From assembly GCA_017478245.1 (NCBI GenBank), contig JAFVDW010000032.1, positions 1 to 37,536 of the forward strand: a stretch of 37,536 bases of DNA, in the 5' to 3' direction. Made by a program: the position numbers and the translations under genes. The notes below the pieces were generated by a model, which saw only the letters and a program-made list of their open reading frames with translations, was not told the origin of the DNA and did no database searches. This document shows, in pieces, positions 15,666-37,536 of this stretch; the first letter of the stretch is position 1; every line of letters starts with the position of its first letter. This stretch comes from Lachnospiraceae bacterium. Its GTDB lineage: Bacteria > Bacillota > Clostridia > Lachnospirales > Lachnospiraceae.

Positions 15666-17900
15666 ATGGAAACAATCAATGGTTATGTGGATCACATAAT
15701 TTACCAAAATGACGAAAATGGTTATACAGTTCTTGCACTTATTTCAGAGGGCGAAGAGATAACCTGTGTGGGGAATTGTAAAGGGCTGACGCAAGGGGAG
15801 ACCATTGCGGCGCAGGGGGATTATGTGGAACATCCGCTTTATGGGATGCAATTTAAAATGAATGAATACCATGTGGAGGCGCCCAAGGACAGTGTGAGCA
15901 TGGAGCGGTATCTGGGGTCCGGCGCAGTCAAGGGTGTAGGAGCGGCTCTGGCAGCCCGCATTGTAAAGAAATTCGGAGATGATACTTTTCGGATTATTGA
16001 GGAAGAGCCGGAGCGTCTTGCTGAGATTAAGGGGATCAGTCTGCGCAAGGCACAGGAAATAGCGGTACAGATGGAGGAAAAAAAGGATCTCAGAGAGGGA
16101 CTGGTATTTTTGCAGCAGTTTGGTATTTCCAATGCCTTGGCAGTACGAATTTATGACACTTATGGAGCCGGTCTATACTCGGTTATGAGGGAAAATCCTT
16201 ATCGGCTAGCAGAAGATATCAACGGTGTGGGCTTTCGAATGGCTGATGAAATCGCAGGAAAAATCGGGATTCACACGGATTCGGATTATCGCATTCGCAG
16301 TGGGATTTTCTATACGCTGTTGCAGGCGGTGGGGGAAGGACATTGCTATCTTCCGATGAAATTACTGTTGGAACGCTCCAGAGAACTGCTGCAGGTGGAG
16401 GAGGAATATATTCGTCCGCAGGTAGATAATCTGATGATGGATAGGAAGCTTGTCATCAAGGGTGACTGTGTTTATGCTGCCAATTATTATTATGCGGAAT
16501 TAAATTGTGCGAGAATGCTTCAGGAGCTGCATATTCCTATGTGGGACACAGAGAATCTGCCTTCGCAGGACACAATGCTTCGCAAGCGGCTGGAACGTTT
16601 GGCGAAAAGCCTTGAGATGGAATTGGACGACCTGCAGCTTGAGGCGGTGATGGAATGTATACGCAATGGAGTGTTCGTGCTTTCCGGCGGACCGGGAACG
16701 GGAAAGACTACTACCATCAATATGATTATTCATTATTTTGATGCTGAAGGGTTGGACATTTTGCTGGCAGCGCCAACCGGGCGGGCAGCAAAGCGAATGA
16801 CAGAGGCAACCGGATATGAGGCGAGAACCATCCACCGACTGCTTGAACTCAATAGTGCGCTCTCCAGCGAGGATACCAGAAAGGTAAATTTCGAGAGGAA
16901 TGCTGAGAATCCGCTGGAGGCGGATGTGGTAATCATCGATGAGATGTCTATGGTGGATATACAGCTCTTTCAGGCGCTGCTCAAAGCGATTGTACCGGGG
17001 ACGCGTCTGGTGCTTGTGGGAGATGTGAATCAGCTCCCCAGTATTGGACCGGGACAGGTCTTGCGGGATATTATGGAGAGTCGCGAACTGCCCATGGTGG
17101 TGCTGCAAAAAATTTTTCGGCAGGCGATGGAAAGTGACATTGTTGTCAATGCACATCGGATAAATCGTGGAGAACAGATTTCCATGGATAACAAGTCGAA
17201 GGATTTTTTTCTGTTGGAAAGAAATGACAATAACGTCATATATAAGCATATGATTCAGCTCATGCAGGATATGCTGCCGGGATATGTGAATGCCACTCCC
17301 TTTGATATTCAGGTGCTGACCCCCATGCGAAAGGGGGCGTTGGGATGCGAGGTGTTAAACGGTATTCTACAGAAGTATTTGAATCCGCCGGATACGGCAA
17401 AACGAGAGTATAGTAGCGGAGAGCGCATCTACCGGGAGGGCGATAAGGTGATGCAGATTCGCAATAATTACCAGTTGGAGTGGGAGATTTTGAGTAAATA
17501 TGGTATCCCCATTGATAAGGGAATGGGAGTCTTTAATGGGGATATGGGACGGATTGTTGAGATAAATGAGACTGCATCCTGTATGGTAGTGGAGTATGAT
17601 GAGCATCGCAGAGTGACATATCCCTTCACATTGTTGGAGGAATTGGAGCTGTCTTATGCGATTACGATTCACAAGTCTCAGGGAAGTGAGTATCCTGCAG
17701 TCATCATTCCATTGTTGGGCGGTCCCAGAATGCTGTTTAATCGCAATCTGCTATATACTGCGATTACGCGGGCGAGAAATTGTGTCATGATTTTGGGCAG
17801 CAGTGGCACAGTGCGGAATATGATTGAAAATGTCAGCGAGAATCAACGATATACGTCGCTTGCCACCAGGATTCGGGAAATCTATGGCAGTGTACTGTAA
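15666..17900 (+). CDS. recD2: ATP-dependent 5'-3' DNA helicase RecD2
   Basis: This is a 744-residue RecD-like helicase of the RecD2 class, longer than RecD of RecBCD because of an N-terminal region. That region has an OB-like part (residues 1-75) and a helix-hairpin-helix part (AVKGVGAALAARIVKKFG, then EIKGISLRKAQEIA). The superfamily 1B helicase core has Walker A GGPGTGKTTT with Lys347, the DEMSMVD Walker B and, near the end, the THKSQGSEYPAVIIPL motif with YTAITRAR. RecD2 unwinds DNA with 5'-3' polarity and works outside RecBCD in replication-fork maintenance, mismatch repair and stress resistance. The start at 15666 has only a weak AAAAGG upstream. It precedes comFC by 57 bases. Confidence 0.94.
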   Translation: METINGYVDHIIYQNDENGYTVLALISEGEEITCVGNCKGLTQGETIAAQGDYVEHPLYGMQFKMNEYHVEAPKDSVSMERYLGSGAVKGVGAALAARIVKKFGDDTFRIIEEEPERLAEIKGISLRKAQEIAVQMEEKKDLREGLVFLQQFGISNALAVRIYDTYGAGLYSVMRENPYRLAEDINGVGFRMADEIAGKIGIHTDSDYRIRSGIFYTLLQAVGEGHCYLPMKLLLERSRELLQVEEEYIRPQVDNLMMDRKLVIKGDCVYAANYYYAELNCARMLQELHIPMWDTENLPSQDTMLRKRLERLAKSLEMELDDLQLEAVMECIRNGVFVLSGGPGTGKTTTINMIIHYFDAEGLDILLAAPTGRAAKRMTEATGYEARTIHRLLELNSALSSEDTRKVNFERNAENPLEADVVIIDEMSMVDIQLFQALLKAIVPGTRLVLVGDVNQLPSIGPGQVLRDIMESRELPMVVLQKIFRQAMESDIVVNAHRINRGEQISMDNKSKDFFLLERNDNNVIYKHMIQLMQDMLPGYVNATPFDIQVLTPMRKGALGCEVLNGILQKYLNPPDTAKREYSSGERIYREGDKVMQIRNNYQLEWEILSKYGIPIDKGMGVFNGDMGRIVEINETASCMVVEYDEHRRVTYPFTLLEELELSYAITIHKSQGSEYPAVIIPLLGGPRMLFNRNLLYTAITRARNCVMILGSSGTVRNMIENVSENQRYTSLATRIREIYGSVL

Positions 17901-17957
17901 TCTATGCAGGCTGCCGCTTGTACCGGCGATTTTGGAGAAGGTCGGAAAGGCAAAATA

Positions 17958-18692
17958 ATGAGAAATACGCTGATGGGTTTGGAGAAAACCGGCAAGATAT
18001 TGACAAAGCTGCTGTTCCCGCCGCGCTGTCCTGTCTGTGATGGAATTGCTCCGTGGGGCAGTCTGATTTGTCCCGGATGCAGGGATGGATTCCGACTATT
18101 AACGGCGCCCTGGTGCATGCAGTGCGGGAAAAAACTGACCACGGATGAAGAATATTGTACGGACTGCCGAAGGAGCAGACATCAGTACCTGCGCGGACGC
18201 GCACTCTATGAGTATGAGAGTGTGGCGGATGCGATTTATCGAATGAAATATGGCAGCCGACGAGAGTATGCGGAATATTTCGGAGGGGAGATGGTAACGC
18301 ATCTGGGCGGATTCATTGCGCAGGCAAGACCGGATGCGTTGATTCCGATTCCTCTGCATCCAAGGAGAATGAGGAAGCGCGGGTACAATCAGGCTGCGCT
18401 TTTGGCAAGAGCTGTGGGGGGCAGAATTGGAGTGCCTGTGCGGGAGGATTTGGTGTTTCGGATTAAGAATACCACGCCGTTGAAACAACAAAATCCCGCA
18501 GAACGGCAAAATAATTTGAAAAAGGCTTTTATTATCAAGCAAAATGATGTAAAATTAGAGTTAAAGTCTACCATTCTCATTGATGACATTTATACTACCG
18601 GCAGTACGGTGGATGAGGTGGCAGGCCTGTTGAAAGTGCAGGGTGTGGAGCGGATTTATGTGCTCACACTTGCTTGTGGAGCAGGAATATAG
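17958..18692 (+). CDS. comFC: ComFC-family phosphoribosyltransferase-like DNA uptake protein
   Basis: This is a 244-residue protein. The ATG at 17958 is preferred over one at 17904 since GAAGGTCGGAAAGG lies directly upstream and the shorter form matches the usual length. The N-terminus holds a zinc-ribbon region with paired cysteines (CPVC, CPGC, CMQC, CTDC). The C-terminus is a phosphoribosyltransferase fold with the PRPP loop ILIDDIYTTGST and the conserved PIPLHPRRMRKRGYNQA. ComFC (ComF) proteins are needed for DNA transformation in Bacillus, Helicobacter and others; the exact activity is unsettled. The frame begins 57 bases after recD2. The following gene is yvyF, and the pair comFC-yvyF is a known Bacillus neighbourhood between competence and flagellar genes. 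comFA and comFB are not in the window. Confidence 0.92.
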   Translation: MRNTLMGLEKTGKILTKLLFPPRCPVCDGIAPWGSLICPGCRDGFRLLTAPWCMQCGKKLTTDEEYCTDCRRSRHQYLRGRALYEYESVADAIYRMKYGSRREYAEYFGGEMVTHLGGFIAQARPDALIPIPLHPRRMRKRGYNQAALLARAVGGRIGVPVREDLVFRIKNTTPLKQQNPAERQNNLKKAFIIKQNDVKLELKSTILIDDIYTTGSTVDEVAGLLKVQGVERIYVLTLACGAGI

Positions 18693-28084: not shown

Positions 28085-28162
28085 GTCACTTTGAAGGCAT
28101 GATGATATGAGATAATAATAAACAATGTAGGTAATTGCGAAGCTTAAGTTTTGATTACTGCC

Positions 28163-28318
28163 GATTGTGCATCTTATACAATCCCACCGCAGGCACGCTC
28201 GCGCTACATGAAATCAGTAGTGGTACTAAGGCGCCTAGCGCTTTAGCGCTATGGTACAGCGCCTAAGGACCAACGGATTTCAAGTACCTGCTTGCGGAAT
28301 TGTACAAACTGCATAATC
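28163..28318. repeat. 156-bp imperfect palindrome (MITE-like or large hairpin)
   Basis: The left end GATTGTGCATCTTATACAAT (28163-28182) matches, in inverse orientation, the right end ATTGTACAAACTGCATAATC (28299-28318) at 16 of 20 positions. Going inward the arms continue: GCAGG/CCTGC, TGAAATC/GATTTCA and CTAAGGCGC/GCGCCTAAG. At the centre is a 16-base near-palindrome TAGCGCTTTAGCGCTA. The left arm carries about 12 extra bases (GCTCGCGCTACA). No clear target-site duplication flanks it. Symmetry over the whole length, with no coding capacity, suggests a MITE or a very large RNA hairpin that could end the upstream membrane-protein unit. It contains a near-consensus -10-like CATAAT (28312-28317) near its right end. 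Confidence 0.8.
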
Positions 28319-28378
28319 TAATTAATGAAAACAGGAGTTTCGCAAATGTCTAAATAGTCAATGAATATGGAGGGGAAT

Positions 28379-29035
28379 ATGATACCAAAGATATGGACAG
28401 GCATTGCCATGATGATTTTACTTGGAAGCACAGCAATGAATGGGACGGAACAATATGAGTACGATGAATTGAACCGGCTCACAAAAATCATTTACCAGGA
28501 TGACAGCTATGTACAGTATGAATATGACGCCAACGGTAACATCACACATGTAGAAGTGCATGATGCGTCGGAGAAGCAAGAGACAGAAAAAGAGAAGCCG
28601 GAAGAGCACTCCGGAGGCACGGAAGAAAAAGAGAAGCCGGAAGAGCACTCCGGCGGCACGCAAGAAAAAGAGAAGCCGGAAGAGCACTCCGGAGGCACGC
28701 AAGAAAAAGAGAAGCCGGAAGAGCACTCCGGTGACACAGAAGAAAAAGAGAAGCCGGAAGAGCACTCCGGTGGCACGCAAGAGAAAGAGAAGCCGGAAGA
28801 GCACTCTGGTGGCACGCAAGAAAAAGAGAAGCCAGGGGAGCACTCCGGTGACACAGAAGAAAAAGAGGAGCCGAAAGAGCACTCCGGTGACACACAAGAT
28901 GAGGGAAACACGGAGGATGACTCCCAAAGAGGAACGAACAAATCTTTTTTTGATACTGTGAAAAGTATCATTACGAGTGTTGTAAACACAGTGATAGGCT
29001 GGGTAAAATCCTTATTGGGATTTTGGAGACGGTAA
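28379..29035 (+). CDS. Small secreted protein: single RHS/YD repeat, charged tandem repeats, amphipathic C-terminus
   Basis: This is a 218-residue protein. The ATG at 28379 follows GGAGGGG at good spacing; an upstream in-frame ATG at 28361 would add six residues. Residues 1-22 (MIPKIWTGIAMMILLGSTAM) form a signal peptide or membrane anchor. Next comes one complete RHS/YD repeat: YEYDELNRLTKIIYQ, then YEYDANGNITHV. Residues about 72-175 are eight tandem copies of a 13-residue unit (EKPEEHSGGTQEK). The C-terminus is a helix that alternates hydrophobic residues with Lys, Asn and Thr (SFFDTVKSIITSVVNTVIGW and KSLLGFWRR), amphipathic and rich in aromatic residues. No cell-wall sorting motif is present. 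No known family covers the full length. It lies 87 bases upstream of a giant surface protein; YD repeats are hallmarks of RHS toxin systems, so a common system is possible but unproven. Confidence 0.72.
   Translation: MIPKIWTGIAMMILLGSTAMNGTEQYEYDELNRLTKIIYQDDSYVQYEYDANGNITHVEVHDASEKQETEKEKPEEHSGGTEEKEKPEEHSGGTQEKEKPEEHSGGTQEKEKPEEHSGDTEEKEKPEEHSGGTQEKEKPEEHSGGTQEKEKPGEHSGDTEEKEEPKEHSGDTQDEGNTEDDSQRGTNKSFFDTVKSIITSVVNTVIGWVKSLLGFWRR
28592..28903 (+). repeat. Eight tandem copies of a 39-bp unit in the YD-repeat gene
   Basis: The unit begins GAGAAGCCGGAAGAGCACTC and is 39 bases long, encoding EKPEEHSGGTQEK or close variants (GGTEEK, GDTEEK). The last two copies diverge (EKPGEHSGDTEEK, EEPKEHSGDTQDE). 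The unit length is a multiple of three, so loss or gain of copies keeps the frame. The repeat makes all other frames look open, which explains several spurious ORFs on both strands. Confidence 0.95.
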
Positions 29036-29103: not shown

Positions 29104-29122
29104 GCAGTGTGTGAGGGAGAAA

Positions 29123-32100
29123 ATGAATCACAAAAAAATACATATGGCGATTGGTAAAAGAAGTGTGGCATGCTTGCTTGCGGTGGTGCTTGCCACCACA
29201 GGCAGTCTTTCGGAGCTGTCCACAGTACAGGCGGCGGGGAATGAAACTATCCCAACGCAGGAGATAGAGATATTCAGTGCAGTGTCCGACAATGACGTAA
29301 TGCTTGCGGCAAATGTCTCGAACCCGATGGAGGTGACCATAGACGAGACACTGACGGAAGATAGGATGATAGACGAACTGATTATCCGGGAGGGTACACT
29401 GGATTTGAACGGCTACACGCTTACCGTGTTGGGTGACATACATATGATGGGCGGTACGCTTGATTTGCATCAGGGAAGTGTGATCTGTGGCGGCAATCTG
29501 TTGCAACCGGGCGGAACCATCAGCATAGAGGGCGGTTTATTACAGATTGAGGGAGACTATCGCCTTTGCTCCGAGGAATATGATGCGGATGCCCATCAGT
29601 ACGGCAGTGGTGACGGCGTCCTCCTTATGTTGGAGGAAGAGAGCACAGTGCTTGTAAAGGGAAGCTTTACCAATACAACGAGTGTAGACCACCGACAGAA
29701 ATTGGAGATGGGAACGTTTCAGGTGCAGGGAGATTTCTTTGTGGACTGCGCCTATTCAGCGTATGCTTTTACAACAAGCTATAATTTAGAGGTGGTACTT
29801 GGCGGTCAGGGGCAGCAGACCATATCCTTTGCACATAATGAAACATACGATTCCTATCTTTACGATATAACGTTCCAAGGGGGAGAGCATCAGAGGATCA
29901 CTCTTGGAGAAAATGTGTATGTGACAGGCGAGATAGAAGATAACGGTTGTGAAAAGGCGGGATATCTTCTGTGTGGGAATAACTGTTATTTTGTCAATCC
30001 CTATTACGGAGACCTTTATTTTGTGAAAGACAGTAATGTCAGAGGAACCATATATGGTAATGTACTGTTTTCGGAGGTTTTTTGGATAAGTGAGGTGGAG
30101 ATTCACGGGGATTTGACGAGTGTCGGTGCACATCATCAGATTTATTTGAGTGGAGGAAAGCTGTCCGTCTACGGCAATCTGACGCTGGATGGCGCCGAGG
30201 AGTCGGGGGGAATCGCCACAGGCTATCCCGGATATATATATGTGCAGGGAGATGTTTACTGCGGGGAGCATGAGCCGATTTATTTACATAATGGAAACCT
30301 TTGGGTGGATGGAAATCTGACCGTAAGTAAGAGAATAAATACAGAATGTACGCTTATTTTGGGCGGTGAGGAAAAACAGACCGTCACATCAGGGGACGGT
30401 ATCTGTGTGCGTACCCTTGAGCTGCGCAATCATAGTGAAGAGGGCGTATACTGTGCGGAAACCATCGTGTGTGATACCCTGATTCAAAATGGATGTAGGC
30501 TACAGTTCGGTGATTTTGAAAGCGTAAGCGGTTGGACACTGGCAGAGGACGAGGTGTATGAGGGGGATCTGGTGTTGGGCGAGGGCACGCTGAAATTAAA
30601 TGGGCATACACTGACCGTGACAGGTGACTTGATTCATATGGGGGGAGAGCTGCTTGTGGATGGCGGCAGCCTGTTGGTACAGGGTGATTATTGTCTTGCC
30701 ACCGCCAGTGAACAGGAAGGGGAACGGCTCTATGGACTGGGTGACGGTGTGCTCATGATGGTGGATGAGCAGGATTATGTGTCTGTAGGTGGCAATTTTC
30801 TGCTAAATTGTGCCAGAAATCAGGGCAGCCTATGGGCAGGTACCTTGGAGGTACAGGGGGACCTGCGCAATGAAAGTTCTTTTTATGCGCTCGGTTTCTT
30901 TATCGGTGACTCCTTTACCTTGAGATTTACCGGTACAGGACAACAGACAGTAGATGGCAGAGCATACCCTCTTGCCATGACAAATGTAGAATTTGCCAAT
31001 GAGAGCGAAGAGGGAATCCGGGTGGGTGGCAATGTGTCGGTCAGTGGACGGATTGAGGACAATGGGTGCCCCAAAAGCGGTTCCCTTGAAATTACGAAGA
31101 CAGCAGTCTTTGCGAGCGGAACCTACACCGGAGATATTTATAGTCAGCAAAAGAGAAGCTTTGAGGAACCGCTTGTTATTCGTGGAACTGCGACATTTGA
31201 TGCAGATGTGACCATCAACAGTGATTTGACGGTCTATGGCAATATGACAGTGGCACGCTCCAAAACACTGGAGCTTTCATCAGCCCGCCTGAGTATATAT
31301 GGTGACCTGATTGGTGATTTATACGCCAAAATGCGTGTAAGCGGGACATCTCCTTATGTATGCGTGGATGGTAATCTGGACTGGCAAGGCAGCTTATATG
31401 CGAGTACACCGGTAACCGTAGAAACACACTCGGATATACGGTTTACAGATACTGCCATCACAGACGCCAATATCACCTTCCTTCTGAGTGGTGATGAAAA
31501 ACAGTGCTTTTATGTGCCAAAGTATTCACGGATTGCCCGGTTGGAACTGCAAAATAGCAGCGAAGAGGGCGTCTGGTGTGAGAACCCCGTAGAAATTTAC
31601 GCGCTCGTGCAAAATGATACCCCTTTTTGGTACGGTGATACCCTTGCCGTGGCAGGTTGGAGGCTGGAAGCCGATCAGGTGTATGAGGGCGACCTTATTC
31701 TGGCGGCAGATACACTGGATTTGAACGGACATACACTGACAGTGCAGGGAAATCTGATACAGTTGGGCGGTGTTGTCTCTGCCAATGGGGGCAAGCTGCT
31801 CATTGCGGGGGACTATTTGGTGTCAGCCCAGTCCTCGGATACAGCAAATGAGAATCAGCGCAAAAGCTTTGGAACCATATCCATGCGTAATGATGCGGAT
31901 TACGTTTTGGTGGAGGGAAATTTTGTGATGGACTCCGACGCTTCACAGGAGGGAGTGCTTTTCGGCGGTGTGCTGGAGGTGAAAGGAGACTTCACATGGA
32001 CGCAGGCGAATGCGTTTAGAATAAGTGCTTCCCACAAAATACGCTTAAGCGGTACAGACAAGCAGCTTGTGTCTGTGGCGGATGGTGTCACCCTGGGAAC

Positions 32101-35100
32101 AGTGGAGTTGGATAACCACAGTGAGGAAGGGGTATATTGTGCACAGATATTCAAACGTGCGGCGTTGCTTCGTAATGGTTGCAGATTGCGCTATGCAGGA
32201 ATGGAGGGAGAGTTCGGCTGGACGCTTACGGAGGATTATGAGGTTGAGGGTGATTTTGTATTGTTGGATGACACCCTTGATTTAAACGGACATTGCATGA
32301 GCGTGCAGGGAGATTTGATTCAGATTGCCGGTGAGGTTCGGATGAATGGCGGCAGTCTGAAGGTACAGGGAAACTACCGACAGCAGGCAAGAATCGGTAC
32401 GGGAGAGGAAGCCCGGTATGAAGCCGGCGCCGGAAAGCTTCGGATGCAGAAGGGGGAAGACAGGGTATCGATCGGGGGAGATTACATCCTCCAGACCAGC
32501 GAGGAGGTGGGAACCTTCAGTGCCGGAACATTGGAGATTGGCGGCGATTTGATACAGCTTGGCACCAACACCCTTTCTGCGTCCGTCGGTCATACCCTGT
32601 CCTTCGCAGGAAGCGGCAGGCATACTGTCACGGCAGCATATATGCCTACGGTGGGCAATCTGACCATTGCATCTTCGGAAGAGGAACCCTTCGTGCTGAA
32701 CAGCCCGCTTACCGCCTTGGGCATAGTGACTGTGGGAGACAGAGAGATTGACGGAACAGGAACGCTACGAATCAGTGCCGTAGAGCAGCTTACGCAACGA
32801 AGCTGGGACGGAAACCTTACACTGACAGAGAGCAGCAGACTTTCCTGTGACTTAAATGTGGGTGGCAAGCTGACAAACAGCGGTAGACTGTACACCAATG
32901 ACCACATGATTCGCGCCGGCGCCATAGAAGTTAAGAATGATTTTTACCTGGAAAACGGCAAGGTATGGTGTGACGGTGATTTCCGCGTGGATTCATACGG
33001 TAAATTGTATATGCAGCAGCCCTTTGGCAGAATCGTTGTGGGCAAGGATTTTTATATGGCATCCCGCTATTCCCATAGCGGCTGCCTGACGGACGGATTT
33101 TTGGAAATTCGGGGAGATTTTACGCAGAATAGCTCCGCCAACTTTATTGCCAGTGAGAATCATACCACCATCCTGAGCAAGAATCCCTTAAGGGAAGGTG
33201 GTAATTATGTTCAGACGGTTTATTTTGCCTATGGTGGAAGTGCAGCCTCCAAGGTAAGATTTAATAAGCTGGTGTTGAAAAAATCTCTGGAAGGATACCA
33301 TTTTAAGAATACTCTGGAATACCTATACAACGAACTGGTGATTGATGAGGAGGAGAAGCTGCCCACGGCAATCGGCACATTAACCGCCACAGAGGTCACA
33401 GCCGCAAGCATCACCCTCTCCTACACAGAGGCGGAAGCGGTGATGGATGTGGCGGGCTATGTGATTTGCCGGAATGGTGTGCAGATAGGAGCGACCAAGG
33501 AGCTCGTCTATGTGGATACCGGACTGACGCCCGAGACAGGCTACACCTATCAGGTGTATGCTCTGGACAAGGTGGGAAATACCGCAGCGGAATCTCCCCT
33601 TCTTTCGGTACAGACCATTGCTGATACAGTGGCGCCCGCACAGCCACAGCCACCCACAGTCACTGCGCTCACAGGTGCGTCCATAGAGCTGAAGTGGACG
33701 GTGCCCTTTGATGAAACAGGTGTGGCGGGATACCGTGTGTATCGAAACGACGAACTGTTGGCGGAGTCTCTGACCGCCAATGTCTATAAAGATACAGGGC
33801 TTGCCCTTGAGAAAACCTATGCGTATACATTGGAGGCGTATGACCATTACGGCAATGTCTCTGTGAAAAGTGAGGCTCTACAGGTGAAGACACAGGCTCC
33901 TCATATCAGTAGTGTGAAGCCGGCGGATGGTAGCGCTTTTGCCACCAATCCAACCTTATATGTATATTATGCAGACCGTGGCAGCAATGCCAGACAGACA
34001 CTCAAGATAGAATATCAGACCACCGAGGGGGAATGGCAGCTTGTAACGGAAGAGAATGTGAGATGGAAGGTCATTGAGGCGCGGGTTTCTTATGTGTGGA
34101 GCCTGAAAAACTTTACCGGGGAGCGACAGGTTCCGGTACGCTATACCCTCAGTGATGCCGATGGCTTCCAGGATGTATGGGAAGTCACCTATCGCATCGA
34201 CAAGGAGGCACCCGAACAGGTACAAGGGCTTTCTGCGCCGCATCCCGGTCGTACCATAGCGCTTACATGGGAGCCGTCAGAAAGTGACGATTGTGTCAAA
34301 TATATAGTTTACCGACGAAAGACTCAGAGTGAAAACTGGACAAAGCTTGCTTTCGTCACCGGCAGGGACAACACCGGTTATATAGATAAAACAGGTGTGG
34401 TGGGTGATACCTACGAGTATGCGGTAGCCGCGGTGGATGACCTGGATAATGTGAGCGTTTTGTCGGACTACATTACCGTCCAGGTGTTGGAGGACGCCGA
34501 AGCTCCCATTGTGGACAGTCTGACTCCCGCAGGTGGAAAACTCTACATACCGCCTACGCTCACTGCCCATGCCACGGACAATTTTGCGGTGGAAAAGATA
34601 TCATTTGCATACCGCAGACAGGGGGAAGAAGCCTGGTTGCCCCTGGCTGCTGTGACTACGCAAGATGGCAGTGCAAGCTATATGTGGGATACCGCAGCCC
34701 TGCCTGATGGTGCATACGAGATAGGTGCCTGGGCGATAGATTCCAGCGGCAATATCAGTGAGGCGGAGTATATAGCGACCTTTACAGTATATAATACAGG
34801 CATGGAGCCGGTATTGGAAGAGAACCTTACATTGACGCACGACGCGGAGGTAGACGACCTGACGGTGCTGTCAGGAATGCTAGATTTGCGTGGACATACC
34901 CTGACGGTACATGGAACTCTGCTGCAAACAGGTGGCTATATAGACTTAAAAGGTGGAAAACTGATTGTAGAAGGGGATTATCAGCTACAGTCCGCCGGAA
35001 GTCTTATCATGACGTACCAGACGGATGAAGTGTTTATCGGCGGAGATTGGCTGCTTCATCTGAATTCGGGCGGTCAGGTGGTCTTAACACGCGGCGTATT

Positions 35101-37536
35101 AGAGATAAAGGGAGACATCCGTGGAGAGGTGAAACCCGGCTTTCGCAAAGTGGACGTGGGGACAGACCACACCCTTCGACTGAGCGGGAACAGGAGACAG
35201 GCACTTGACTGCGCGGGAGTCTTTATTGGTTTTGATAAATTGGAAATAACCAATGATAGCGAGGACGGAGTGTGCTTCGTCTCTCCTTTGTGTATCACAA
35301 ATTATGTGAAGGATAACGGATGCCCCAAGGAGGGGACCCTGTATGTTTACCCTACCACCAAATTCGAGGGCGGGGTATATACCGGAGATCTTTTGGTGTG
35401 GGGCAGTGGAACCCTTGCAAGGACACTTGCTGTTAAGGGAACAGTGACGAATCGGGGAATTATGACTGTCACGGGAGAGCTGCAGGTTGAGGGAGATTTT
35501 GTCAACCAGAGAAAGCTGGAGCTGTACGGTGGACGACTTACGGTATCCGGTGATTTTCGTTCCGACACAGACGATAGGGACAAGGGATTGTTTATGACAA
35601 GCACTGCGGCTTACCTCTATGTGGGCGGCAACTTTACCTATAAAGGCTATGTGAACGGTCAAATCAGCAAGGGAACTCTGGAGGTGGCGGGAGATTTTAC
35701 TGCCACATCGGGATTTTGGGCAACGGATAGCCACAAGCTGATTTTAAGCGGTGACCGGAGACAGACCATAACCATGGCACAGAACCTGAAATTGGCAACA
35801 CTGGAGCTGCGCAACTACAGCGAGGAAGGAGTGTACTCAGACAGGATTCTGTCCGAGGATAAGCTGGTTGGCAATGGATGTCGGTTGACCTACTCTGACA
35901 TGACTGGTCTGGTGGGGACAACCCTGACAGAGGATACAACCATAGAGGGAGACTATGCGCTGCTTGATGGCAAATTGGATTTGAACGGACACACCCTGAC
36001 TGTGAAGGGTGATTTCATTCAGATGTTGGGGGATGTGTATGTACATGGCGGAGCATTGATTGTACAGGGAGATTACCGGGGGCAGCTTGCACGACATGAG
36101 GAAGAAGACTGGAACTATGATCCCGGCACAGGCGGACTGCTCATGCAGACGGACGCAGACTATGTGCAGATAAAGGGCGACTTTATCTTCCAGCCTGCGG
36201 AAGACAATCGAACCCGTCTGACGGCGGGTACACTGGAGCTCGCCGGTGATTTGAGGCAACTGGGCACACAAGGGCTTGTGGCAGAGGGAAAGCACACCTT
36301 GCTCCTTGCGGGAGAAGACACCCAGACCATTACGGCGGACACAGAGATAAAAGCAGCCAATCTACGCATAGCGAACCCCAGTATGCAGGGACAAAGCGAT
36401 ACAGCCAGAACCCTGGTATTGCAGGCAACCATTGCCGCTTCCGGTACAGTTACAGACGGCGGTGCGACCATCCTGGGGGATGGCGCACTCTCCCTTGCAG
36501 ACCCCGACTGTTTGGAGGAACACTCCTGGAGTGGGAATCTGGTGCTGGAGACGGATCAAACCACAGAAGAAGCAGCGACGGATACGATATTGCTTGCGCA
36601 GGATCTGACGGTGGGAAGAGGACTGACGGTCAAATCCCCCCTTGCCCTGGGCGAACACAGCCTTCATGCGAACAGCATTACGTTGGAGGCTGCTCTTGAC
36701 GTGCAAAATGGAGCAGGATACTGTGAAAACGACTTTACCGTGAAAGAACAGGGACGTCTGCTCATGCAGGAGGAGCAGGGACGGATTTTCGTGGGCGGCA
36801 ACTTTACCTTCGCCTCCACATACCCCCACAGCGGACTACTGACTGCCGGAGAACTTGAGATACAGGGAGATTTCACCCAGAAAACAGCCCCCAACTTTAT
36901 TGCCACAGAAACACACACCACCATCCTCAGCAAGGATACCAACCAAAACGCAGGAGCTTACAGACAGACCATCTCCTTTGCCCACCCCGGCAGCGCGAAG
37001 ATGAATATCCTTGTGTTGGAGGAAGATATTACACAATACCTCTATCTGAACGATAGAAACACCATATGCAGACAACTGATTGTCCGCAAAGACGCGGAAG
37101 CACCGGCGACACCGGCACTCCCCACCATAGCCGCACGCACCGGCTCCGCCATCACCCTAAGCTGGAGTGTGCCCTACGATAACGTGGGCGTTGTAGGATA
37201 CCATATCTACCGTGACGATGAAAAGATTGCATCCGGTGTGACAGACACCACCTACAAAGACACCGGACTGGAGGCAAATACCATCTATCACTACACCATG
37301 GAAGCCTATGACGCGGCGGGGAACATCTCCCAGCGCAGCGCCACGCTTGCCACAACCACCGTGCAGCCCCACATCACCCAGATACTCCCCGCAGATCACA
37401 GTGAAATGGGCGGAGAAAAAACAACACTCACAGTACGCTTTGGAAATGCCGGAAACAGCACCGGCAACTGCATTTCCATTGCATACAGGGACGAGACGGG
37501 ACAGTGGAGCATACTCACCCCCACCCCCCTCCCCCA
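29123..37536 (+). CDS. Giant secreted modular surface protein (beta-solenoid modules and fibronectin type III), 3' end outside window
   Basis: ATG at 29123, after GAGGGAGAAA, opens a frame with no stop through 37536: 2804 codons plus two bases. Residues 1-37 form a signal peptide (basic MNHKKIHMAIGKR, hydrophobic ACLLAVVLATTG, end TVQA-A). Residues 40-1400 and 1890-2650 are beta-strand-rich repeats in which short strands ending in G-D/N-hydrophobic recur every 15-25 residues. Landmark LDLNGHTLTV-like motifs lie at residues 93, 490, 865, 1052, 1920 and 2285. Each module also shows SEEGVYC, NGCRL and TLTED-like lines. Fibronectin type III domains lie at about 1414-1497, 1506-1590, 1696-1788 and 2660-2748, with an Ig-like domain at about 1793-1892. 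Such layout fits an adhesin or the N-terminal shaft of an RHS-type protein; the C-terminal end is unseen. The upstream small protein has a YD repeat. Function is unknown. No antisense ORF over this region is convincing. Confidence 0.88.
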   Translation, partial: MNHKKIHMAIGKRSVACLLAVVLATTGSLSELSTVQAAGNETIPTQEIEIFSAVSDNDVMLAANVSNPMEVTIDETLTEDRMIDELIIREGTLDLNGYTLTVLGDIHMMGGTLDLHQGSVICGGNLLQPGGTISIEGGLLQIEGDYRLCSEEYDADAHQYGSGDGVLLMLEEESTVLVKGSFTNTTSVDHRQKLEMGTFQVQGDFFVDCAYSAYAFTTSYNLEVVLGGQGQQTISFAHNETYDSYLYDITFQGGEHQRITLGENVYVTGEIEDNGCEKAGYLLCGNNCYFVNPYYGDLYFVKDSNVRGTIYGNVLFSEVFWISEVEIHGDLTSVGAHHQIYLSGGKLSVYGNLTLDGAEESGGIATGYPGYIYVQGDVYCGEHEPIYLHNGNLWVDGNLTVSKRINTECTLILGGEEKQTVTSGDGICVRTLELRNHSEEGVYCAETIVCDTLIQNGCRLQFGDFESVSGWTLAEDEVYEGDLVLGEGTLKLNGHTLTVTGDLIHMGGELLVDGGSLLVQGDYCLATASEQEGERLYGLGDGVLMMVDEQDYVSVGGNFLLNCARNQGSLWAGTLEVQGDLRNESSFYALGFFIGDSFTLRFTGTGQQTVDGRAYPLAMTNVEFANESEEGIRVGGNVSVSGRIEDNGCPKSGSLEITKTAVFASGTYTGDIYSQQKRSFEEPLVIRGTATFDADVTINSDLTVYGNMTVARSKTLELSSARLSIYGDLIGDLYAKMRVSGTSPYVCVDGNLDWQGSLYASTPVTVETHSDIRFTDTAITDANITFLLSGDEKQCFYVPKYSRIARLELQNSSEEGVWCENPVEIYALVQNDTPFWYGDTLAVAGWRLEADQVYEGDLILAADTLDLNGHTLTVQGNLIQLGGVVSANGGKLLIAGDYLVSAQSSDTANENQRKSFGTISMRNDADYVLVEGNFVMDSDASQEGVLFGGVLEVKGDFTWTQANAFRISASHKIRLSGTDKQLVSVADGVTLGTVELDNHSEEGVYCAQIFKRAALLRNGCRLRYAGMEGEFGWTLTEDYEVEGDFVLLDDTLDLNGHCMSVQGDLIQIAGEVRMNGGSLKVQGNYRQQARIGTGEEARYEAGAGKLRMQKGEDRVSIGGDYILQTSEEVGTFSAGTLEIGGDLIQLGTNTLSASVGHTLSFAGSGRHTVTAAYMPTVGNLTIASSEEEPFVLNSPLTALGIVTVGDREIDGTGTLRISAVEQLTQRSWDGNLTLTESSRLSCDLNVGGKLTNSGRLYTNDHMIRAGAIEVKNDFYLENGKVWCDGDFRVDSYGKLYMQQPFGRIVVGKDFYMASRYSHSGCLTDGFLEIRGDFTQNSSANFIASENHTTILSKNPLREGGNYVQTVYFAYGGSAASKVRFNKLVLKKSLEGYHFKNTLEYLYNELVIDEEEKLPTAIGTLTATEVTAASITLSYTEAEAVMDVAGYVICRNGVQIGATKELVYVDTGLTPETGYTYQVYALDKVGNTAAESPLLSVQTIADTVAPAQPQPPTVTALTGASIELKWTVPFDETGVAGYRVYRNDELLAESLTANVYKDTGLALEKTYAYTLEAYDHYGNVSVKSEALQVKTQAPHISSVKPADGSAFATNPTLYVYYADRGSNARQTLKIEYQTTEGEWQLVTEENVRWKVIEARVSYVWSLKNFTGERQVPVRYTLSDADGFQDVWEVTYRIDKEAPEQVQGLSAPHPGRTIALTWEPSESDDCVKYIVYRRKTQSENWTKLAFVTGRDNTGYIDKTGVVGDTYEYAVAAVDDLDNVSVLSDYITVQVLEDAEAPIVDSLTPAGGKLYIPPTLTAHATDNFAVEKISFAYRRQGEEAWLPLAAVTTQDGSASYMWDTAALPDGAYEIGAWAIDSSGNISEAEYIATFTVYNTGMEPVLEENLTLTHDAEVDDLTVLSGMLDLRGHTLTVHGTLLQTGGYIDLKGGKLIVEGDYQLQSAGSLIMTYQTDEVFIGGDWLLHLNSGGQVVLTRGVLEIKGDIRGEVKPGFRKVDVGTDHTLRLSGNRRQALDCAGVFIGFDKLEITNDSEDGVCFVSPLCITNYVKDNGCPKEGTLYVYPTTKFEGGVYTGDLLVWGSGTLARTLAVKGTVTNRGIMTVTGELQVEGDFVNQRKLELYGGRLTVSGDFRSDTDDRDKGLFMTSTAAYLYVGGNFTYKGYVNGQISKGTLEVAGDFTATSGFWATDSHKLILSGDRRQTITMAQNLKLATLELRNYSEEGVYSDRILSEDKLVGNGCRLTYSDMTGLVGTTLTEDTTIEGDYALLDGKLDLNGHTLTVKGDFIQMLGDVYVHGGALIVQGDYRGQLARHEEEDWNYDPGTGGLLMQTDADYVQIKGDFIFQPAEDNRTRLTAGTLELAGDLRQLGTQGLVAEGKHTLLLAGEDTQTITADTEIKAANLRIANPSMQGQSDTARTLVLQATIAASGTVTDGGATILGDGALSLADPDCLEEHSWSGNLVLETDQTTEEAATDTILLAQDLTVGRGLTVKSPLALGEHSLHANSITLEAALDVQNGAGYCENDFTVKEQGRLLMQEEQGRIFVGGNFTFASTYPHSGLLTAGELEIQGDFTQKTAPNFIATETHTTILSKDTNQNAGAYRQTISFAHPGSAKMNILVLEEDITQYLYLNDRNTICRQLIVRKDAEAPATPALPTIAARTGSAITLSWSVPYDNVGVVGYHIYRDDEKIASGVTDTTYKDTGLEANTIYHYTMEAYDAAGNISQRSATLATTTVQPHITQILPADHSEMGGEKTTLTVRFGNAGNSTGNCISIAYRDETGQWSILTPTPLP

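Follow-up and report, generated by a model that had tools for sequence, protein, structure and literature searches.

In contact-dependent inhibition, CdiA carries a toxin at the tip of a long beta-helical stick. RHS polymorphic toxins at large (Zhang et al. 2012, PMC3482391) combine an RHS part, DUF6531, Rhs_assc_core, PT-HINT and exchangeable tips, with orphan tips besides. WapA of Bacillus subtilis and Streptococcus suis has a signal peptide and is a surface RHS protein of >300 kDa with an RHS core and a variable C-terminal toxin; in S. suis it binds the wall by LysM/DNRLRE domains, and upstream accessory genes (SecF-like and SrtB) matter for it (PMC12704120). Here, we analyze a giant gene on a 37,536-base window of DNA from a gut bacterium of the Lachnospiraceae (GCA_017478245.1, JAFVDW010000032.1), which is the entire contig C65 of a 119-contig, 2.49-Mb genome (G000), together with a small gene that adjoins it directly upstream and contains a single YD repeat (hereafter mini-YD). 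We consider it very probable (roughly 0.85) that the giant gene specifies the stalk half of an RHS polymorphic toxin of the WapA-like, Sec-exported kind, whose toxin-loaded RHS shell is seen at the far end of relatives and would be expected here as well. RHS polymorphic toxins and WapA as such are already known.

Like WapA, the giant family has a signal peptide, an RHS core and a variable tip, the latter two in relatives; unlike WapA, it has a shaft of several predicted beta-solenoid modules, Fn3 and PKD domains and a conserved stretch of ~520 residues just before the RHS part (A1), and mini-YD lies upstream of it. Neither the window protein nor the same-genus copy L032 (Pfam, NCBIfam) showed a wall-binding domain, and nor did the copy L034 (Pfam). 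Relatives of the giant have the same elements as RHS systems at large (RHS repeats, DUF6531, core, PT-HINT and varied tips), orphan tips occurring as well, while solenoid shaft modules and a single-YD partner are absent from the passages of PMC3482391 considered. Neither a single-YD partner nor solenoid-shaft RHS proteins of Lachnospiraceae were described among the open-licence literature matches listed. The giant would work much as CdiA does, but with a Sec signal and an RHS shell instead of TPS/FHA and CdiB: the window protein had no TPS/FHA match in Pfam or NCBIfam, and no CdiB occurred among the 10 neighboring open reading frames (ORFs) scanned.

The first-pass annotation had read the gene as an uninterrupted 8.4-kb frame open at the window edge, and this reading holds: from an ATG at 29123, preceded by GAGGGAG, 2804 residues run without a stop to the contig end, the earliest start codon in frame being a GTG at 29111. 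Because the window is a whole contig, the open 3′ edge is an assembly break. The signal peptide claimed for the protein can be seen by eye in the translation. As a separate observation, a C-rich run closes the contig (37515–37536), and its last bases are possibly an assembly artefact.

Six LDLNG-type modules had been proposed, and their motifs fall exactly at residues 93, 490, 865, 1052, 1920 and 2285. In pairwise alignment, all 15 module pairs were 29–46% identical and scored 21–130 standard deviations above 30 shuffles, while control pairs of a module and an Fn3 domain scored at shuffle level; the modules are therefore true repeats rather than chance resemblances. A full module spans ~375 residues, module 3 is a half module, and modules 4 and 6 have a distinct terminal form in common (46% identity). 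No family matched the shaft modules above cut-off in Pfam or NCBIfam. The count of four FnIII domains was about right: Pfam placed Fn3 in three stretches, with fn3_2 and Big_7 matches below cut-offs.

The idea of a built-up beta-solenoid shaft drew support from an AlphaFold2 model of module 2 alone, for which the alignment consisted of the six window modules. The model was all-beta, with no helix, a mean predicted local distance difference test score (pLDDT) of 90.1 and a predicted template modelling score (pTM) of 0.87. Most strands were of 3–4 residues at a spacing of 6–7 residues (e.g., residues 12–60 and 202–245), with some of 7–12 residues, a pattern that supports the predicted beta-solenoid with ~20 residues per three-strand coil. 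Beta-solenoids rise 4.8 Å per coil, from which one module would be ~9 nm long; modules in tandem may form a long stalk, whose continuity and stiffness we infer, one module having been modelled. Foldseek against the PDB returned no match at E ≤ 0.001. The weak top matches (TM score at most 0.31) were often beta-helix proteins, among them the IgA1 protease passenger, P22 tailspike and PfbA, so the resemblance to beta-helix adhesins such as PfbA and the IgA1 protease passenger is weak and not significant.

The first-pass annotation had left it to the unseen end whether the protein is an adhesin, an RHS shell or a toxin carrier, and relatives point to an RHS shell with a toxin-like tip. Within a same-genus set of 101 genomes, nine matched the giant protein, its own genome included. 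Longer copies there reach 4758 (L032), 4572 (L034), 4055 (L035) and 3938 residues (L033), all extending past the ends of their contigs and all with a signal-peptide start read by eye. L032 has five shaft modules and, in Pfam, Fn3, PKD, DUF6531 (E 6e-8) and 27 RHS-repeat stretches (E 5e-154), and L034 has 21 RHS-repeat stretches in Pfam; the RHS layout of L033 and L035 was read by eye. After the shaft, the order in these copies is Fn3/immunoglobulin (Ig), PKD, a weak carboxypeptidase-regulatory-like match, DUF6531 and many RHS repeats.

A contig search with the whole window protein found no relative; with the A1 alignment as query, 54 loci were found, mostly in Lachnospiraceae. A1 matched in 34 of 397 genomes of the family, 22 of them at E < 1e-20, most others matching only the DUF6531 end of A1. 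Of the 54 loci, 45 had an A1 gene that a profile of the six modules matched; among the remaining nine, several are cut or broken at the 5′ side. Shafts of relatives ranged from about two to six modules. Complete genes with shaft and RHS encode 4048–5296 residues in these loci (the 4048-residue one, L080, includes a masked run), and 3142 and 4476 residues in L170 and L172. The core motif GNPxxxxDPFGL occurs in 19 of 24 relatives with an intact C-terminus; the five without it are L078, L092 and L093 (no RHS), L080 (masked) and L082. Beyond the core, tips differ: among 20 complete tips scanned, six had PT-HINT (one of these with an AHH nuclease and one with DUF7587), one other had RES, one had RHS repeats alone and 12 had no match. 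With respect to sortase-type anchoring, complete RHS relatives end in these toxin-like tips.

An RHS tip of this type is also present in the window's own genome. Contig C50 ends (89,286) within a sequence repeated exactly over 92 bp, and this repeat is a tip junction, as in orphan-tip arrays. One copy sits in a 548-residue orphan RHS tip with Rhs_assc_core (E 2e-19) and an Ntox30-like end just under cut-off (E 3e-5); the other leads to a second tip of ~145 residues without a Pfam or NCBIfam match. Two small ORFs (147 and 136 aa), one behind each tip, had no Imm family match in Pfam or NCBIfam and are perhaps immunity genes. Compared with the RHS cores of the A1 giants tested, the 548-residue tip was best matched by L047 (53%, E 3e-75); against 15 partial RHS loci the best match was at E 3e-17, a weak control of ~3-kb pieces, some from A1 genomes. 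The plain reading, although not proven, places the two ends of a single gene on C65 and C50, its middle having been lost to repeats. A shaft-protein copy on contig C112 (L036, 2602–4273) was considered as the continuation, but this was rejected because the copy is a paralog in decay that has a signal-peptide-like start of its own and is located between genes that we take to be iscS/iscU-like and mnmA.

Several observations weigh against a toxin. The 2804 residues of the window protein hold no RHS repeats or Rhs_assc_core (Pfam), and no contig of its assembly has an A1 match or an RHS array, i.e., the RHS end of the gene itself is unseen; the link between C65 and C50 is unproved; and A1 proteins with a shaft but without RHS do exist. 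In L078 and L092 (Pfam) and in L093 and L165 (by eye), such proteins end in LRR_5, and other RHS-less A1 proteins have surface-type ends by eye: L162 has WYYFD repeats, and L166 a membrane helix with a basic tail (the ends of L159–L161 were left unclassed). The window gene could thus be an RHS-less member, i.e., a plain giant adhesin with a solenoid stalk, Fn3 domains and an adhesive or wall-bound end of the LRR_5 or a similar kind. We regard this as improbable: all four same-genus copies that reach far enough (L032–L035) have RHS repeats, the window's own genome has the C50 tip, and mini-YD, which the window has, is found at none of the five shaft genes classed as without RHS (one of them, L173, a broken frame). 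For the toxin reading, the signal peptide would send the protein out of the cell, the tandem modules interrupted by Fn3/Ig domains would make a long stalk, and an RHS shell at its far end would hold a swappable toxin. By analogy with known RHS systems, contact with a neighboring bacterium would release the toxin, and immunity genes would protect the producer; both the stalk function and the killing of neighbors are putative.

Next, we evaluated the partner gene, of which the first-pass annotation of the giant made no mention. In the model of mini-YD, built on an alignment with 20 relatives, a signal helix is followed by a confident unit of four strands (pLDDT ~95), then by a linker whose pLDDT is close to 50 or lower and a C-terminal helix scoring ~90; the overall pTM was 0.31, as expected for such a chain; the C-terminal helix is borderline in hydropathy (1.51). 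Across 30 partners (those of the window, L032 and L037 plus 27 others, the cut L046 excluded), the YD repeat always begins 4–12 residues past an AxA-like site, and within 6 in 21 partners, under a loose rule for which the window site is weak by eye. By our own rules, the C-terminal ends of these partners comprise a membrane-like helix (12), a basic Fn3-like domain (6), LRR_5 (2; L057 and L062, confirmed by Pfam) and amphipathic or other ends (10, including L088, which resembles the basic type). The YD repeat itself is conserved although the giants' tips vary. Longer single-YD frames occur in L172, G153:C32 and G375:C49 (346, 383 and 473 residues), the first with an extra stretch after the signal peptide that looks by eye like a carbohydrate-binding domain.

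The same kind of gene lies upstream of L032–L035 and L037 (5′ cut in L034). Overall, mini-YD was found directly upstream in 28 of 43 loci in which the giant's start is present. Every one of these genes had a single YD match scoring 30 bits or more, and its end lay anywhere from 110 bp ahead of the giant's open frame to 109 bp within it. Among 1967 other ORFs of 70–450 residues in those loci, just one had such a match (in L075, downstream). The 15 loci without mini-YD include three that are cut (L045, L075 and L085; L032, a longer stretch of the L045 genome, has mini-YD) and L072, with an in-frame remnant fused to the giant. In the L072 fusion (start at 1673), a deletion has apparently joined the signal peptide and some of the YD repeat of mini-YD in frame to the giant; L075 has a second mini-YD (17159–18058) on the downstream side of the giant gene, positioned as though it headed another copy; and in L087 and L091 the place of mini-YD is taken by large low-complexity proteins with no YD match and LRR_5-like ends by eye.

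We then compared gene classes over 67 loci, i.e., the 54 plus 13 of 15 further loci from family genomes (two duplicates dropped), with nine loci unjudged where the upstream sequence was too short (one of these, L047, has mini-YD). Mini-YD accompanies 21 of 30 genes with shaft and RHS and eight of nine with a shaft and a 3′ cut. It accompanies none of five with a shaft but without RHS, none of seven with neither and none of seven with RHS but no detected shaft, the last class being impure as some rows (e.g., L054, L070) begin inside broken genes. The contrast between RHS and no RHS has a Fisher p of 0.0004 with kinship ignored; the difference between 21 of 30 genes with shaft and RHS and none of the 12 A1 proteins without RHS (five shaft-only, seven with neither) is not significant after kinship correction, and the 13 added loci were picked mainly because the search had shown no mini-YD there. 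In a quick tree of 66 A1 domains, mini-YD is spread over many branches, with 12 changes compared to 18.6 in shuffles. Across the 397 family genomes, 16 short-frame matches (<500 residues, at least 50 bits) were found in 15 genomes; below 50 bits, matches were mostly repeats of long RHS frames, with a few short frames besides. All 14 of these genomes other than the window's own carry A1, 13 strongly and G211 weakly; treating genomes as independent, the probability of this by chance would be 7e-17. Eleven of the 14 have mini-YD and A1 on one contig and one strand, with mini-YD upstream; in G429 both share a contig but mini-YD is downstream, and in G246 and G211 mini-YD is on other contigs. L079, L096 and L070 lack a partner but come from genomes that also contain a partnered giant (L071, L064), and mini-YD could therefore act in trans there.

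Other results limit how tightly mini-YD can be tied to RHS giants. Nine of the 30 genes with shaft and RHS lack it: the cut L045 and L075, the fusion remnant L072 and six plainly without. Among independent pairs on the tree, none runs counter to the pattern, but 4 and 6 pairs are too few for significance. At class level, two of 390 other genomes matched at E ≤ 1e-12 (G683 and G807), with single-YD exported-type proteins of another family and no A1 match. Both are on the reverse strand and have further beta-rich domains by eye: L179 of G683 (405–2324) lies about 2.2 kb from a 54-residue RHS scrap, and L181 of G807 (53–844) is found with a 503-residue RHS frame. The notion that single-YD proteins are always paired with an A1 giant was rejected on these two genomes. 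A fixed docking site was also sought, as the cognate RHS repeat most like the mini-YD repeat; none emerged, the best matches being scattered over the shell.

Of the roles considered, the likeliest, although at odds below even, is that mini-YD may tether the RHS giant at the producer's surface. The fuller version, a two-part weapon in which mini-YD is a donor-type tether whose YD hairpin pairs with the RHS shell and an anchor is supplied in trans, is a possibility that we hold just as loosely. Signal peptidase cleavage would expose the single YD hairpin for this pairing, the disordered linker would cross the wall, and a swappable end (membrane helix, basic domain or LRR_5) would hold on. Three findings speak against such docking: the scatter of best-matching repeats over the cognate shell, the loci with shaft and RHS but no partner, and the two genomes of the other family. 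The mini-YD ends look like surface anchors from their sequences, and surface-type ends occur on several RHS-less A1 proteins themselves and elsewhere on the partner, so the anchor seems to be placed on the giant if its C-terminus is free and on the partner if that end is a toxin.

A folding or capping role, in which the YD hairpin would close one open end of the RHS shell during extracellular assembly with no anchoring, accounts for some of the same features: the YD repeat lies near the mature N-terminus in all 30 partners, like a donor segment, and the model contains a confident four-strand unit. It seems doubtful to us nonetheless, because under it neither the long linker nor ends of the membrane-like, basic or LRR_5 kind are explained, and no cognate giant's RHS repeat is consistently the closest kin of the mini-YD repeat. 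Less probable again is a surface decoy or immunity-like factor that would occupy a site on kin RHS shells and block self-delivery. A surface location is likely and the YD repeat mimics the shell, but immunity in RHS systems is tip specific and encoded beside the tip, unlike mini-YD with its upstream position and a YD repeat conserved despite varied tips; recipients lacking the giant should moreover keep such a factor, yet all 14 of the other family genomes with a short-frame mini-YD of at least 50 bits match A1. That mini-YD is a mere relic of a displaced RHS gene is highly unlikely: RHS loci do rearrange often, and the own genome holds the decayed shaft-gene relative on C112, but across many branches of the A1 tree mini-YD has retained an intact frame, a signal-peptide-like start and a YD repeat, while its linkers and ends differ.

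These giants probably serve Lachnospiraceae as contact weapons, and assemblies frequently break their genes: 29 of the 54 loci leave their contig on the 3′ side. For Gram-positive RHS proteins of >300 kDa, the route of wall passage is stated as not yet identified (PMC12704120), and the family offers a graded stalk and a small partner gene tracking the shaft and RHS layout that are relevant to this question. Coordinates of the window features are collected in Table 1.

Table 1. Features of the giant gene and its mini-YD partner in window coordinates.
Feature	Position	Strand	Basis
Mini-YD partner, 224 residues: signal peptide, single RHS/YD repeat, linker rich in repeats, C-terminal helix	28361..29035	+	Pfam RHS_repeat E 6e-10; model
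Single YD repeat of mini-YD, residues 32-69	28454..28567	+	Pfam, model
Mini-YD linker, eight tandem EKEKPEEHSGGT-type repeats	28583..28885	+	Sequence, model
Mini-YD C-terminal hydrophobic/amphipathic helix	28940..29029	+	Sequence rules, model
Giant shaft and Fn3 protein, N-terminal part	29123..37536	+	2804 residues, no stop, cut by contig end
Predicted Sec signal peptide, ~38 residues, ...STVQA/A	29123..29236	+	By eye from translation
Shaft module 1, residues 69-465	29327..30517	+	LDLNG motif, pairwise alignment
Shaft module 2, residues 466-840	30518..31642	+	Alignment; beta-solenoid in AlphaFold2 model
Shaft module 3, half length, residues 841-1027	31643..32203	+	Alignment
Shaft module 4, terminal form, residues 1028-1415	32204..33367	+	Alignment
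Fn3/bacterial Ig stretch, residues 1416-1890	33368..34792	+	Pfam
Shaft module 5, residues 1896-2260	34808..35902	+	Alignment
Shaft module 6, terminal form, 46% identical to module 4, residues 2261-2650	35903..37072	+	Alignment
Fn3 stretch, residues 2651-2804, cut by contig end	37073..37534	+	Pfam

Upstream of mini-YD, window positions 28140–28330 hold a near-palindrome of 170–190 bases with a predicted fold of -63.7 kcal/mol (z -4.1). Contig C60 has a 75% copy of it and C6 a short piece; it may be a leader or else a mobile hairpin element of small size.
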